From: Candidatus Gastranaerophilales bacterium
GTDB lineage: Bacteria; Cyanobacteriota; Vampirovibrionia; Gastranaerophilales; Gastranaerophilaceae
Assembly (NCBI GenBank): GCA_944323625.1
Contig: CALUTD010000017.1
Span: 1-50,082 of the forward strand
Direction: 5' to 3'
DNA: 50,082 nt
Shown: piece after piece, positions 24,697 to 29,285 of the stretch
Layout: every line of letters starts with the position of its first letter
How positions within the stretch are numbered: the stretch's first letter is position 1
Made by a program: the position numbers and the translations under genes
Notes under the pieces: generated by a model
The model's input: only the letters and a program-made list of their open reading frames with translations
The model's database searches: none
Told to the model about the DNA's origin: nothing

Positions 24697-26349
24697 ATGA
24701 TAAAATCCGTCACAGTAAAAAATTACATATTGATTGATGAAATAACGCTTGAATTTGACAAAGGGTTTAATGTTTTTACCGGTGAAACAGGTGCGGGAAA
24801 AAGTATTATAATAGGTGCAATAGATACCGCCCTTGGCGCTAAAGTAAGTAAAGATGTTATTAAAACAGGAAAAGACAGAGCTTATATTGAACTTTTAATT
24901 GAACTTAAAAATGATTTTGATTTATCTCTTTTTACCGATAACGCAATAGAAGTTACAAACAACGAACTTATAATATCCCGCGAGATTCTTACCTCAACAA
25001 CCCGTTCAAGAATAAACGGTGTTATGGTAACACAGGAGTTTATAAAAGAAATAAGAGAAAAACTGCTGGATATTCATACTCAGCACCAGAGCTATAATTA
25101 CATGCAGCAAAAGAGCCACATAGTCCTGCTTGACAATTTTGCACTAAAACCTCACAGAGATAATATATTGTTATTTAAAGAGAAATATACAAAATATCTC
25201 AGTATGCAAAAACGTTTGAAGGAGCTGACTGCTCATACTGAATCGATAAAGCAGCAGGAGGAATTTTTAAAATTTCAGGTTGAAGAAATAGAAAATGCGC
25301 AAATTGAAAACATAAATGAATGTGAAGAACTTGAAAAAGAACTGGATATTCTTGCTAATATAGAGAAACTAAAAGAGCTTTCATATTCATCATACTGGGC
25401 ATTATACGGAGATGAAGGAAATATTATAGATGCCTTAGGCAATATAAAGGCGAATCTTTCAAAGCTTACAAGGATGGATGATTCCGTTCAAACCATTGAA
25501 GAAGATTTTAATAATACGTATGAAACCTTAAAAGAAATTGCAAATGAACTCAGAAATTATGCGGATTCAAAAGAAAACGACAATGAAAGAATGGATGAAA
25601 TAGGTCAAAGGTTAAGCCTTCTTGATAAAATCAAAAGAAAATACGGCAATACGCTTGAAGAAGTACTAAATACTTATGAAAAACTTACAACTGAACTTAA
25701 CAATATAGAAATTTCACAGGATGAAACAGTTAAACTGGAAAAAGAAATTAAAATATTAAATCAAGAATTGGATTCACTTTCATCAACTATAAGCTCTGCA
25801 AGAAAGGAACTGTCAAAAGTACTTTCTTTGGCTGTAACAAAAGAACTTGAAAAACTGGAACTTCCTAAATCGAGGTTTGAAATTGAAGTTACTCCCGCAC
25901 AAATGAACGAAAACGGCATTGACAGAGTTGAATTTTTAATTTCCACAAATGTTTCCGAAAGTCTTAAACCGCTTGCCAAAACCGCTTCAGGCGGTGAAAT
26001 ATCACGTGTTATGCTCGCACTAAAAACAATTTTTGCCAAAGCTGATAACACAAACACTGTAATCTTTGATGAAATAGATACCGGTATTTCAGGCAAAGCT
26101 TCTCAAGCGGTAGCGGATTCAATTGCAAATTTGGCAAAATCTCATCAAATAATATTAATAACACATCAACCGATAATAGCGGCAAAGGCTTCTTCTCATT
26201 TTTACGTTAAAAAAGAGCAAACTGATGTAACAAAAGTAAAAGTATATAATCTTCAAAATGAGAACAGAGTAAAAGCAATTGCACTGCTTGCCGCGGGAGA
26301 AATTAACGAAGAATCAGAATCATTTGCAAAAAACTTACTCGGCGTTTAG
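24697..26349 (+). CDS. recN: DNA repair ATPase RecN
   Basis: A 550-aa SMC-like double-strand-break repair protein. Walker A GETGAGKSIII (30-40), IHTQHQSYNYM Q-loop region, central coiled coils (155-370), signature SGGEISRVMLAL, Walker B VIFDEIDTGISG, and THQP switch. Full length. The nadK-recN pair is a frequent arrangement in bacteria. Its 3' end overlaps the convergent gene at 26346 by 4 bases. Confidence 0.95.
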   Translation: MIKSVTVKNYILIDEITLEFDKGFNVFTGETGAGKSIIIGAIDTALGAKVSKDVIKTGKDRAYIELLIELKNDFDLSLFTDNAIEVTNNELIISREILTSTTRSRINGVMVTQEFIKEIREKLLDIHTQHQSYNYMQQKSHIVLLDNFALKPHRDNILLFKEKYTKYLSMQKRLKELTAHTESIKQQEEFLKFQVEEIENAQIENINECEELEKELDILANIEKLKELSYSSYWALYGDEGNIIDALGNIKANLSKLTRMDDSVQTIEEDFNNTYETLKEIANELRNYADSKENDNERMDEIGQRLSLLDKIKRKYGNTLEEVLNTYEKLTTELNNIEISQDETVKLEKEIKILNQELDSLSSTISSARKELSKVLSLAVTKELEKLELPKSRFEIEVTPAQMNENGIDRVEFLISTNVSESLKPLAKTASGGEISRVMLALKTIFAKADNTNTVIFDEIDTGISGKASQAVADSIANLAKSHQIILITHQPIIAAKASSHFYVKKEQTDVTKVKVYNLQNENRVKAIALLAAGEINEESESFAKNLLGV

Positions 26350-27068
26350 TTTTCACCGGAACAAACCATGCAATTTGTATTCCGCTCTGCCGTTAATTTT
26401 TTAAATTCTGTTTTCAATGCATCAAAAATAAGTAATTGATTGGTTAATAATCCGTCAAACCCCATTATCAATTTCATAACCTCTAACGCTTCTATAGATG
26501 CAATCACAGATACTATAGGGCTTACAACACCTTTTGTTATATATTCGTTTAAATCCGCATAAGGTATTATACAGCGAAGACACGCACTTGAACCGGGGAT
26601 TACGGTCATTACCTGACCTTTAAATTCCGAAACTGCACCGTGAACTAAAGTTTTAGAAGTTTTAACCGCAATATCATTTAATAAAAATTTAGACTCAAAA
26701 CTGTCAAAACAATCTACTATAATATCATACTTTTCAATTATACTTTGATAGTTGCTTTCATTTAATTTGGTATTAAAAGTTTCAATATTAATATCGGGGT
26801 TAAATTTAAGAATTCTTTTTTTTGCAGCTTCTGTTTTTAGTTTACCGGTTTGAGAAGGATTATATAAAAACTGACGATTTAAATTTGAAAGCTCAATGAC
26901 ATCATAGTCCAATATTCCTATATTACCAATGCCGAGTCCGGCTAAATTTACCAAAACATAAGACCCTAAACCGCCGACCCCTGCAACAAGCACTTTTGAA
27001 TCTAGAAGCTTTTTCTGACCTTCCAAACCGATTTTTTCAAGAATAATATTTCTGCTATATCTTTCCAT
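26346..27068 (-). CDS. thiF: ThiF/MoeB/HesA-family adenylyltransferase (E1-like)
   Basis: A 240-aa enzyme that adenylates the C-terminal glycine of a ubiquitin-like sulfur carrier. It shows RYSRNIIL, the nucleotide motif VAGVGGLGSYVL (29-40), DVIELSNLNRQF, and two zinc CxxC pairs (ACLRC near 168, CMVC near 234). It has no rhodanese domain. The start overlaps the bioB stop by one base (TAATG). With thiS as first gene of the operon its likely substrate is that ThiS. Confidence 0.85.
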   Translation of the reverse strand: MERYSRNIILEKIGLEGQKKLLDSKVLVAGVGGLGSYVLVNLAGLGIGNIGILDYDVIELSNLNRQFLYNPSQTGKLKTEAAKKRILKFNPDINIETFNTKLNESNYQSIIEKYDIIVDCFDSFESKFLLNDIAVKTSKTLVHGAVSEFKGQVMTVIPGSSACLRCIIPYADLNEYITKGVVSPIVSVIASIEALEVMKLIMGFDGLLTNQLLIFDALKTEFKKLTAERNTNCMVCSGEN

Positions 27069-27979
27069 TATATTTTAACCAAATTTTTATTGAGTTTTTT
27101 AACTGTCTTTATATCTTCAAGCGGACTTTTACCCGTTGTTGTAAGATAATTCCCAGTTAAAATTCCTTCAACACAATATTTAAGAGCTTTTTCCTGATTT
27201 TCATCAGATAAGCGCATTCTACCGCCGCAAAATCTTAAAATCGATTTGGGATTTGCAATTTTGAATACAGCAAGAGTTCTCAATATATTTTCTTCATCTA
27301 TTTTATTTCCGTAATTTTCAAACGGAGTTTTTGCAATAGGCATAAGAATATTAATAGGTATGGAATCCGGTTCGATATCTCTTAACTCAAGAGCCATTTC
27401 TATACGCTGCTCTACAGATTCGCCCATTCCTAGTATAACTCCGCAGCATAATTCCATACCATACTTTTTTACAAGTTTACATGTATTTAGCCTATCTTGC
27501 CAACTGTGCGTAGTACAAACTTCATTGTAATATGATTCTGCCGTATTTATGTTATGATGGAATCTTTTTAACCCGTGTTTTGCAAGTAATTTAGCCTGCT
27601 CTTCATTTAAAATCCCTATAGAAGCGCAGCTTCTTATTCCTTCTGTTTTATTAATTTCGTCAATTAAGTCAAGAATTTTATCAAAATTTTCTTCATCCGG
27701 TGACTTGCCCGAAGTCACAATAGCAAATCTTATTGCCCCGTTCTTTTTTGCTTCAAGAGCTGCTTTTATTGCTTCTTTTTTGTCAATTAACGGATAATCT
27801 TCTATATCGGTTAGATAATGTGAGCTCTGTGCGCAGTATTTACAGTTTTGAGAACATTTGCCGTTTCTTGCATTTACAAGAGAGCAAAATTCAACATTAT
27901 TTGTCATATATTGAGATGAGAGCTTAAAAAGCTCATTTAAATCAGAATAGTATAACTTTAAAAGTTCTTCTTTATTCAT
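27068..27979 (-). CDS. bioB: Biotin synthase, variant auxiliary-cluster ligands
   Basis: A 303-aa radical SAM enzyme that inserts sulfur into dethiobiotin. The cluster motif is CSQNCKYCAQSSHY. Other BioB landmarks are GIRSCASIGIL, ELCCGVILGMGES, SIPINILMP and the C-terminal GNYLTTTGKSP. The cysteine that in E. coli BioB is Cys97 appears replaced by Ala (RFAIVTSGK), and HHNI stands where classical enzymes have YNHNL. From memory this recalls the anaerobe-type BioB with a different auxiliary iron-sulfur cluster. It overlaps mnmA by 4 bases (ATGA) and thiF by one base. Confidence 0.85.
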   Translation of the reverse strand: MNKEELLKLYYSDLNELFKLSSQYMTNNVEFCSLVNARNGKCSQNCKYCAQSSHYLTDIEDYPLIDKKEAIKAALEAKKNGAIRFAIVTSGKSPDEENFDKILDLIDEINKTEGIRSCASIGILNEEQAKLLAKHGLKRFHHNINTAESYYNEVCTTHSWQDRLNTCKLVKKYGMELCCGVILGMGESVEQRIEMALELRDIEPDSIPINILMPIAKTPFENYGNKIDEENILRTLAVFKIANPKSILRFCGGRMRLSDENQEKALKYCVEGILTGNYLTTTGKSPLEDIKTVKKLNKNLVKI

Positions 27980-29079
27980 AATACCCTCTCTATTATTCCT
28001 CCTCCAAGCACAATATCGCCGTTATAAAATACCGCTGATTGACCGATAGCTATGGGATTTTGTGCTTCGGTAAAAATAACTTCAATCTTATCCGGACCAT
28101 AAGGTTTTATTGTCGCTTCCTTAGGCTCCTGAGCCGAACGATACTTAACGTTACATAAAAGTTCTTTATTAGGTTTTTCAATAGCGGAAAATATAACATT
28201 TGAAACTATTATTTTTTTGTTCAGTGCCGCTTCCTTATATGCAACAACAACTTCATTTGTTTCTTTTCTTAACTCAGTAACATATAAAGGTTTAGGGGCT
28301 GCAATGCCTATACCCTTTCTTTGACCTATTGTATAATTCCAAAAACCTGAATGTTTTCCGAGTATATTACCTTCTTTATCGACTATATTACCTTCTTTCG
28401 GTGCAGCAGATAATATATCATTATAATCTCCGTTATAAAAATCCTGGCTGTCAGGTTTATCTGCAATAACAAAGCCGTATTTTCTTGCAATTTCTCTTAT
28501 TTCTTCTTTTGTATAATTACCTAAAGGAAGTAATATTTTTGATAGTTGCTCTTGAGTAAGTCCGTATAAAAAGTATGACTGGTCCTTTTTTTTGTTAACA
28601 CCTTTTTTTAATATGTATTTTCCGTTTTCAAAATCTATTTTTGCATAATGACCGGTTGCAAATTTATCAAACTTTATACCTGATTTTCTTGCAAGCTCAG
28701 GGAAAATTCCGAATTTTATAAATTTATTGCAGCAAATACAAGGGTTCGGAGTTCTGCCGTTAAGATATTCATCTTTAAAATAGTTGATTACAATATTTTC
28801 ATATTCTCGTGAACAATCAATAACATGAAAGTCGATTTCAAGTTTTTTTGCTATTTCACGGGCTTCTTCTATATCTTTTTTCTTATTTGGACTCAGGCAA
28901 GCACAGTGAGTCATATTTTTACATTCATTTTTTTCAATTTTTTCTTTTAATTCGTTGAAAAAAATACTGCTGCCCCAAAGCGACATAATTGCCCCTGAAA
29001 CTTCATAACCTTGTTCTTTTAACAAAAGCGCAGCTACGGATGAATCTACTCCGCCTGACATTCCGACAAGTACCCTCAT
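27976..29079 (-). CDS. mnmA: MnmA-like tRNA 2-thiouridylase lacking the second catalytic Cys
   Basis: A 367-aa PP-loop ATPase of the family that makes 2-thiouridine at tRNA position 34. SGGVDSS is at residues 9-15, and GHYAKI, KDQSYFLYGLTQEQL and YTIGQRKGIGI are conserved. It differs in the sulfur-handling cysteines. The catalytic persulfide Cys of the usual DSxxICF motif is absent (KPDSQDFYNGDY, near 210-219). An insert with CKNMTHCAC is present near 52, and Cys114, Cys116 and Cys117 form PNPCICCNK. That pattern suggests an iron-sulfur cluster or a different sulfur donor. GGCGGAGG at the end of thiS serves as Shine-Dalgarno, 5 bases separate the genes. Confidence 0.85.
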   Translation of the reverse strand: MRVLVGMSGGVDSSVAALLLKEQGYEVSGAIMSLWGSSIFFNELKEKIEKNECKNMTHCACLSPNKKKDIEEAREIAKKLEIDFHVIDCSREYENIVINYFKDEYLNGRTPNPCICCNKFIKFGIFPELARKSGIKFDKFATGHYAKIDFENGKYILKKGVNKKKDQSYFLYGLTQEQLSKILLPLGNYTKEEIREIARKYGFVIADKPDSQDFYNGDYNDILSAAPKEGNIVDKEGNILGKHSGFWNYTIGQRKGIGIAAPKPLYVTELRKETNEVVVAYKEAALNKKIIVSNVIFSAIEKPNKELLCNVKYRSAQEPKEATIKPYGPDKIEVIFTEAQNPIAIGQSAVFYNGDIVLGGGIIERVL

Positions 29080-29084
29080 ACCGG

Positions 29085-29285
29085 TTAGCCTCCGCCTACA
29101 AAATGAACTATTTCAATTCTATCCTTGTCATTTAAAACAGTTTCTTCAAATTTATCTTTTGGTATGATTTTCATATTTAACTCAACAGCATACAGTGTAG
29201 TTTTTATATCTTGTTTTTTTATAATGTCTAAAAGCGTAGTGTTTTCTGCTAATTCAATATTCTGTCCGTTTATTGTTATATACAT
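29085..29285 (-). CDS. thiS: Ubiquitin-like sulfur carrier protein ThiS
   Basis: A 66-aa beta-grasp protein ending in VGGG, the C-terminal tail that is adenylated and thiocarboxylated. VELNMKIIPKDKFEETVLNDKDRIEIV is family-typical. In thiamin synthesis it passes sulfur to ThiG, but thiG/thiH are not here; instead it leads an operon with mnmA, bioB and thiF. GAGGGA precedes the ATG. Two TATAAT sequences lie upstream at 29317-29306. Confidence 0.88.
   Translation of the reverse strand: MYITINGQNIELAENTTLLDIIKKQDIKTTLYAVELNMKIIPKDKFEETVLNDKDRIEIVHFVGGG

Follow-up and report, generated by a model that had tools for sequence, protein, structure and literature searches.

A 50,082-nucleotide (nt) stretch of DNA from a Candidatus Gastranaerophilales bacterium (assembly GCA_944323625.1, contig CALUTD010000017.1; hereafter "the window") carries a minus-strand run of four genes, thiS, an mnmA-like gene, bioB and thiF, at positions 29285 to 26346. 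The source contig (C17) belongs to a 2.0 Mb genome that is 96% complete. Open reading frames (ORFs) and Pfam and NCBIfam profile scores bear out this cluster, which had been predicted from the sequence alone together with a ThiS-fed sulfur route to tRNA and biotin. The run opens with thiS (29085..29285), a sulfur carrier protein of 66 amino acids (aa) that ends in GGG and scores 79 bits against TIGR01683 (cut-off 37). It continues with a gene for an MnmA-like tRNA 2-thiouridine synthase without Cys199 (27976..29079; 367 aa; 387 bits against NF001138, cut-off 284), hereafter MnmA*, then with the biotin synthase gene bioB (27068..27979; 303 aa; 360 bits against TIGR00433, cut-off 225) and with thiF (26346..27068; 240 aa), an E1-like adenylyltransferase with two CxxC pairs that scores 260 bits against PF00899 (cut-off 28) and falls below every NCBIfam cut-off listed in the family scan. 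The four genes had been described as overlapping, which holds for mnmA and bioB (4 nt) and for bioB and thiF (1 nt), while thiS and mnmA are separated by 5 nt. Our best explanation, with a probability of about 0.6, is that these genes are a sulfur-cofactor gene cassette and not a single ThiS-driven machine, and that MnmA* would be the cell's tRNA uridine-34 (U34) 2-thiolase, working without ThiS and without a persulfide on Cys199.

MnmA* keeps the PP-loop and both further MnmA domains (PF03054, 224 bits; PF20259, 70 bits; PF20258, 68 bits), with the PP-loop HUP, PRC-barrel and C-terminal domains all above their cut-offs. It is the only strong PF03054 match of the genome, and the check for a second, canonical mnmA accordingly returned none. 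Its AlphaFold2 model (predicted local distance difference test score, pLDDT, of 93) finds its best fold match in the tRNA-bound E. coli MnmA, 2det, with a template modeling (TM) score of 0.88. What it lacks is the cysteine of the catalytic loop: the segment D210-Y219 (DSQDFYNGDY; 28423..28452, minus strand), which holds the persulfide cysteine in canonical MnmA (Cys199 in E. coli), is Cys-free (ADKPDSQDFYNGDY). On this point the original prediction was correct, and the result does not depend on the aligner: MAFFT aligns Tyr215 with Cys199, HMMER treats Cys199 as an insertion beside Tyr215, and neither places a cysteine there. In a profile search of 38 genomes, including the window's own, the loop reads SQDFY in 24 proteins plus that of the window, and SQD[VI]C or SQG[VI]C in the canonical MnmAs of the order, where all 14 readable loops contain the cysteine.

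The same holds over a wider alignment of 105 rows, composed of 80 rows from a DNA scan for the loop motif, 24 from the family search and the window protein (MnmA matches were kept if stronger than 1e-20, and a fragment from genome G015 was left out). Cysteine is absent from the site in 105/105 rows. The motif fixes Tyr215, and tyrosine in the 80 scan rows is thus selected, as are the 24 family-search rows, which were sorted by the same loop letters (the other 14 readable rows carry Cys); the cysteine positions discussed below lie outside the motif. Of 27 rows found without the motif, 25 have Tyr at residue 215, 2 have Phe and none has Cys. A catalytic or ligand role for the hydroxyl of Tyr215 is unlikely given the Phe in 2 of these 27 unselected rows. 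One MnmA set of 71 rows was cut to the 63 sequences of more than 345 aa, 62 of which were aligned with the window protein.

Three other cysteines are retained throughout. Cys114 and Cys117, which form a CxxC within TPNPCxxCN (28729..28740, minus strand), are present in 105/105 rows, and Cys61 (codon 28897..28899, minus strand) in all 102 readable rows of the 105; each of the three occurs in 27/27 of the motif-independent rows. Ten MnmA* proteins have Cys61, 89, 114 and 117 as their only cysteines. MnmA* thus has the CxxC of the three-cysteine CxxC-C thiolases without their loop cysteine, for which Cys61 is a candidate substitute. We also considered Cys61 as a newly gained insert, as comparison with the canonical MnmAs of the order had suggested, and rejected this: it aligns with the first conserved cysteine of E. 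coli and S. pneumoniae MnmA. In the alignment rows shown, Cys61 is preceded by Ala, Ser or Gly and never by a second Cys.

Judged by alignment and tree, Cys199-less MnmA forms a clade, of type C-CxxC-[YF], that is widespread among gut and other bacteria. The DNA scan, run over one genome per species, returned at least 119 stretches matching the loop motif, of which 80 among the matches listed were analyzed; the record titles include Gastranaerophilales, Elusimicrobiota (Endomicrobium among them), animal-gut Alphaproteobacteria, a Spirochaete, Lentisphaera, Adiutrix and others. In a quick tree (110 of 120 rows kept), a branch with a Shimodaira-Hasegawa-like approximate likelihood ratio (SH-aLRT) support of 100 separates 97 Cys-less rows from 13 canonical rows, the latter all from the order Gastranaerophilales. 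The near named relatives of the window by MnmA are Candidatus Gastranaerophilales metagenome-assembled genomes. Two metagenome-assembled genomes bear the titles Fusobacterium (L177) and Acinetobacter (L161), but their MnmAs group with those of Gastranaerophilales in the tree, so that both titles are probably wrong. In 50 genomes from this cross-phylum scan, which partly overlap the order sample introduced below, MnmA* is the sole PF03054 protein in 44, and full-length ThiS was counted in 9 (20-26 bit matches inside ORFs of 699-759 aa omitted, as was a G064 match over profile positions 38-76; G064 was counted for its full-length matches, one of them maybe a MoaD-type carrier). A recurrent sulfur-supply neighbor was sought and rejected: no cysteine desulfurase was seen among the 22 neighbor families listed, and named by eye, for the 80 scan loci, and a CysK-like gene occurs in just 3/80. 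The same reading by eye places a BioB/HydE-like radical S-adenosylmethionine (SAM) gene within two genes of mnmA* in 15/80 loci (L157-L236), and a NadA-like gene in 8/80, mostly directly upstream on the same strand.

If ThiS fed MnmA* as a rule, the two should occur together. We examined this in 192 genomes of the order, mostly drafts, 182 of them ≥90% complete. ThiS was found in 48 genomes and ThiG in 48, with 45 holding both (Fisher p = 1.6e-36), while ThiS occurs in 18 of the 75 genomes with MnmA* vs 30 of the 117 without it (Fisher p = 0.87). All 18 genomes with both ThiS and MnmA* also encode ThiG, none of the 55 MnmA* genomes without ThiG has ThiS, and 30 of the 48 ThiS genomes have no MnmA*. 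MnmA* is the only MnmA in 62/75 genomes, 46 of which are without ThiS; a second, canonical-type MnmA accompanies it in the other 13. The 75 MnmA* were assigned from the score and coverage of their BLAST matches (all E ≤ 7.4e-92, next match 9.0e-67), with a complete set of per-genome rows and with loops read in a subset. At a finer scale, full-length ThiS is present in 2 of 23 genomes of genus g1 (G000 and G019; 21-28 bit matches inside ORFs of 653-751 aa omitted), with full ThiG in the same 2 and ThiF in 3. MnmA* occurs in 21 of these 23 genomes, G015 having just a fragment at a contig end that does not reach the loop and G009 none, and canonical MnmA was not found in any of the 23.

The joint presence of carrier, E1 and thiolase that marks ThiS/Urm1-type systems is therefore not seen for MnmA*, and ThiS as its required sulfur donor is rejected on co-occurrence, both in genus g1 and across the order. 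Because ThiS tracks ThiG, not MnmA*, over the 192 genomes, thiazole synthesis seems to be what ThiS is retained for, and MnmA* is maintained in its absence. The window's own genome fits the thiamin type: its ThiS matches the ThiS profile and ends in GG, and ThiF and ThiG are both encoded. A genome-wide profile search gave one ThiS and one ThiF match, the window thiF product being the only PF00899 match and the window ThiS the only ThiS found. The original prediction had stressed the absence of thiG and thiH. Neither lies inside the four-gene cluster, but both are encoded elsewhere, adjoining each other on contig C3 (ThiG, 344 bits; ThiH, 517 bits against TIGR02351, cut-off 380). Thiamin genes elsewhere with no other ThiS is one of the two outcomes that the original prediction had named as refuting it. 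As relatives without the carrier keep the same MnmA*, vitamin B1 synthesis is most likely the role of ThiS here. Facultative donation from ThiS to MnmA* may still occur where the cassette exists.

Gene order in relatives was also surveyed. The arrangement is not unique to this genome, and in this respect the co-occurrence analysis supports the original prediction: of the 18 genomes holding both, 7 have thiS directly upstream of mnmA* in the same orientation, 0 to 23 nt away (G000, G195, G242, G221, G027, G034 and G036), and these 7 span 6 genera and 4 families. G195 has the exact order of the window plus cysK. G027 has thiS-mnmA-thiF-bioB-cysK (CysK named by 68% identity to that of G195), G034 has thiS-mnmA-thiF, and G036 has thiS and mnmA followed by a metY-like gene, MetY being named by sequence reading. 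MnmA* and thiF are also linked in G062. In the other 11 of the 18, including all ten g31/g32 genomes with both, thiS and mnmA* are on different contigs. In four genomes of genus g19, thiF and bioB cluster without mnmA; ThiS was called in three, and the fourth has a ThiS match that shares sequence with another called ORF. A further g19 genome, G242, has thiS-mnmA-thiF beside a bioB that is 71% identical to, and closest to, the bioB of G027. As its four congeners have no mnmA in the cluster, this set looks to have been transferred together.

Several further observations concern the carrier genes. At loci without mnmA linkage (L335, L336, L339, L340, L342, L343), thiS adjoins a queE-like gene, a MoeA-like gene or metY, not thiG (the queE-like and MoeA-like names come from sequence reading), and such neighbors may hint that the carrier has further uses. 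G034 and G027 each encode two ThiS-like proteins (L039:3328-7488, L343, L055), one near CysK- or MetY-like sulfur-assimilation genes and the other upstream of mnmA. In G019 (L333:1565-2711), the ORF next after ThiF, of 112 aa, is rhodanese-like by eye and had no NCBIfam match at 1e-10. In the window itself, a scan of the operon found 9 promoter-like sites where 15.3 would be expected, and nothing terminator-like on the minus strand. The 3′ end of thiF overlaps a convergent plus-strand ORF (24697-26349) by 4 nt, at 26346-26349; this ORF is RecN-like by sequence reading rather than by family scan.

The second half of the predicted route, from ThiS to biotin, finds no support here. In 14 of the 21 other genus g1 loci read, no more than about 500 nt separate bioB from mnmA, and no full-length ThiS was found in those 14 genomes. 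By profile and motif, the window BioB is an ordinary biotin synthase, above the TIGR00433 cut-off and with the radical SAM CxxxCxxC (Cys42, 46 and 49). It has extra cysteines at positions 32 and 155, common to the PDB entries 8vdw and 8vcw, where E. coli BioB (1r30) has Ser and Ile. We take 8vdw and 8vcw to be the anaerobe Type II biotin synthases of Lachowicz (JACS, 2024; cited in PMC11089781), where this type was reportedly described; in its two extra cysteines the window protein is alike.

How MnmA* might thiolate U34 can be framed by what is known of related enzymes, for which we draw on excerpts of two papers. In those of the first (PMC11784392), the mechanism of U34 thiolation by MnmA is disputed between a persulfide on Cys199 and a [4Fe-4S] cluster with sulfide, and E. 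coli MnmA variants without Asp99, Cys102 or Cys199 do not restore thiolation. In those of the second (PMC8584467), TtuA holds a [4Fe-4S] cluster by three cysteines, a free-sulfide route is possible in carrier-less organisms, and the CxxC-C MnmA of Thermus has a three-cysteine [4Fe-4S] cluster. By its sole-copy status in 62/75 order genomes, MnmA* would form 2-thiouridine (s2U34) in tRNA Glu, Gln and Lys. It would adenylate U34 through the PP-loop, as MnmA does. With no Cys199 persulfide, a [4Fe-4S] cluster would likely be held by Cys114, Cys117 and a third ligand, most simply Cys61, and the free iron of this cluster would carry sulfide for delivery to the activated uridine. The NifS/NifU system might supply the sulfide, or free sulfide of the anoxic gut might be used: the genome encodes a NifU-NifS pair (320 and 548 bits, both above cut-off), NifS being one of nine PF00266 matches, of which one other is strong and reads as phosphoserine aminotransferase and seven are weak. 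In parallel, the sulfur donor that ThiG and ThiH need to build the thiamin thiazole would most likely come from ThiS and ThiF, and BioB makes biotin. In its full form, i.e., that C-CxxC-[YF] MnmA makes s2U34 without Cys199 or a protein carrier, with Cys61 as the third [4Fe-4S] ligand, free sulfide as the donor and thiocarboxylated ThiS as an option in cassette species, this proposal is a tentative one, which we hold at less than even odds.

A different chemistry would retain the persulfide and move it to Cys61, Cys117 or Cys89, with no Fe-S cluster. This is in keeping with the invariance of Cys61, 114 and 117, with Cys89 in most rows, with the NifS cysteine desulfurase of the genome, and with the disputed standing of the MnmA cluster model in the excerpts of PMC11784392. 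We nevertheless consider it somewhat unlikely, since the canonical site is gone from an otherwise kept loop and the CxxC is present, the Thermus CxxC-C enzyme having a [4Fe-4S] cluster (PMC8584467, excerpts). A ThiS-thiocarboxylate that donates sulfur to MnmA* wherever the cassette exists, shared with ThiG, with ThiS-less relatives having switched to free sulfide, would account for the GGG terminus of ThiS and the place of its gene just before mnmA* (0 to 23 nt) in 7/18 genomes, for the apparent joint transfer of thiS-mnmA*-thiF into G242, and for the MnmA*-thiF linkage in G062, and thiocarboxylate donors have precedent (PMC8584467, excerpts). The lack of any ThiS-MnmA* association over the 192 genomes, the 46 order genomes with MnmA* as sole MnmA and no ThiS found, and the separate contigs of the two genes in 11/18 genomes make it unlikely. 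That MnmA* is no tRNA thiolase at all, and instead assists in the loading of ThiS or has a part in making thiamin or biotin, is suggested by its linkage to thiS, thiF and bioB and by the two MnmA types found together in 13/75 order genomes. Such a role is highly improbable for a protein that keeps the PP-loop, PF20259 and PF20258, that is the sole MnmA in 62/75 genomes, 46 of them without ThiS, and that is missing from 30/48 ThiS genomes.

Several points also weigh against the preferred reading of MnmA* as a ThiS-independent U34 thiolase that does not use a Cys199 persulfide. Where a canonical-type MnmA coexists (13/75), MnmA* may have a task other than s2U34. Cys89, present in 91/103 readable rows, is a fourth candidate cysteine, and in 21/105 rows of Elusimicrobiota type (e.g., L162, L167, L170, L176 and L188) a cysteine directly follows Tyr215 (position 216, DFYCGDY) and could carry a displaced persulfide in those sequences. 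Cys61 is also found in ordinary MnmA; the ligands proposed for the E. coli enzyme are Asp99, Cys102 and Cys199, and use of a cluster by that enzyme is itself disputed (both in the excerpts of PMC11784392). The thiS-mnmA* linkage in 7/18 genomes and the one apparent joint transfer exceed the needs of a mere vitamin function. As to the counts, short ThiS may escape PF02597, some PF02597 matches resemble MoaD, and the Fisher tests take no account of kinship among the genomes, most of which are drafts.

MnmA* can be set against three known systems. The excerpts of PMC11784392 describe two MnmA classes, a C-type, CC-CxxC-C (Thermus thermophilus), and a D-type, C-DxxC-C (E. coli). MnmA* has the same PP-loop, PRC-barrel and C-terminal domains, first conserved cysteine and CxxC, and a TM score of 0.88 to 2det, whereas both classes carry the last cysteine (Cys199), where MnmA* has Tyr (Phe in 2/27 unselected rows). 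The C-CxxC-[YF] clade lies beyond the two classes named there. The TtuA and Ncs6 systems, with TtuB and Urm1, are alike in a PP-loop thiolase, in the idea of a three-cysteine [4Fe-4S] cluster and in a ubiquitin-like donor next door. However, TtuA (5ztb, 5gha) is a remote fold match to MnmA* (TM about 0.33), and the carrier is missing from most MnmA* genomes. The ThiS-ThiF thiazole pathway shares the TIGR01683 ThiS, the PF00899 ThiF and a genome that also encodes ThiG and ThiH, but here thiS and thiF adjoin mnmA and bioB, not thiG and thiH. A literature search gave no recognizable description of this operon or of a Cys199-less MnmA, the search term ThiS also matching "this".

Overall, the original prediction saw a true oddity, a Cys-less MnmA, and tied it to the wrong neighbor, and the case serves as a warning that a conserved gene cluster need not imply a shared carrier. 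The clade is worth following: a natural Cys199-less lineage that is mostly the sole MnmA of its genomes (62/75 in the order; 44/50 in the scan) makes the dispute over the MnmA mechanism directly testable and, if the reading proposed here is true, would be a natural experiment against the model of a persulfide on Cys199.

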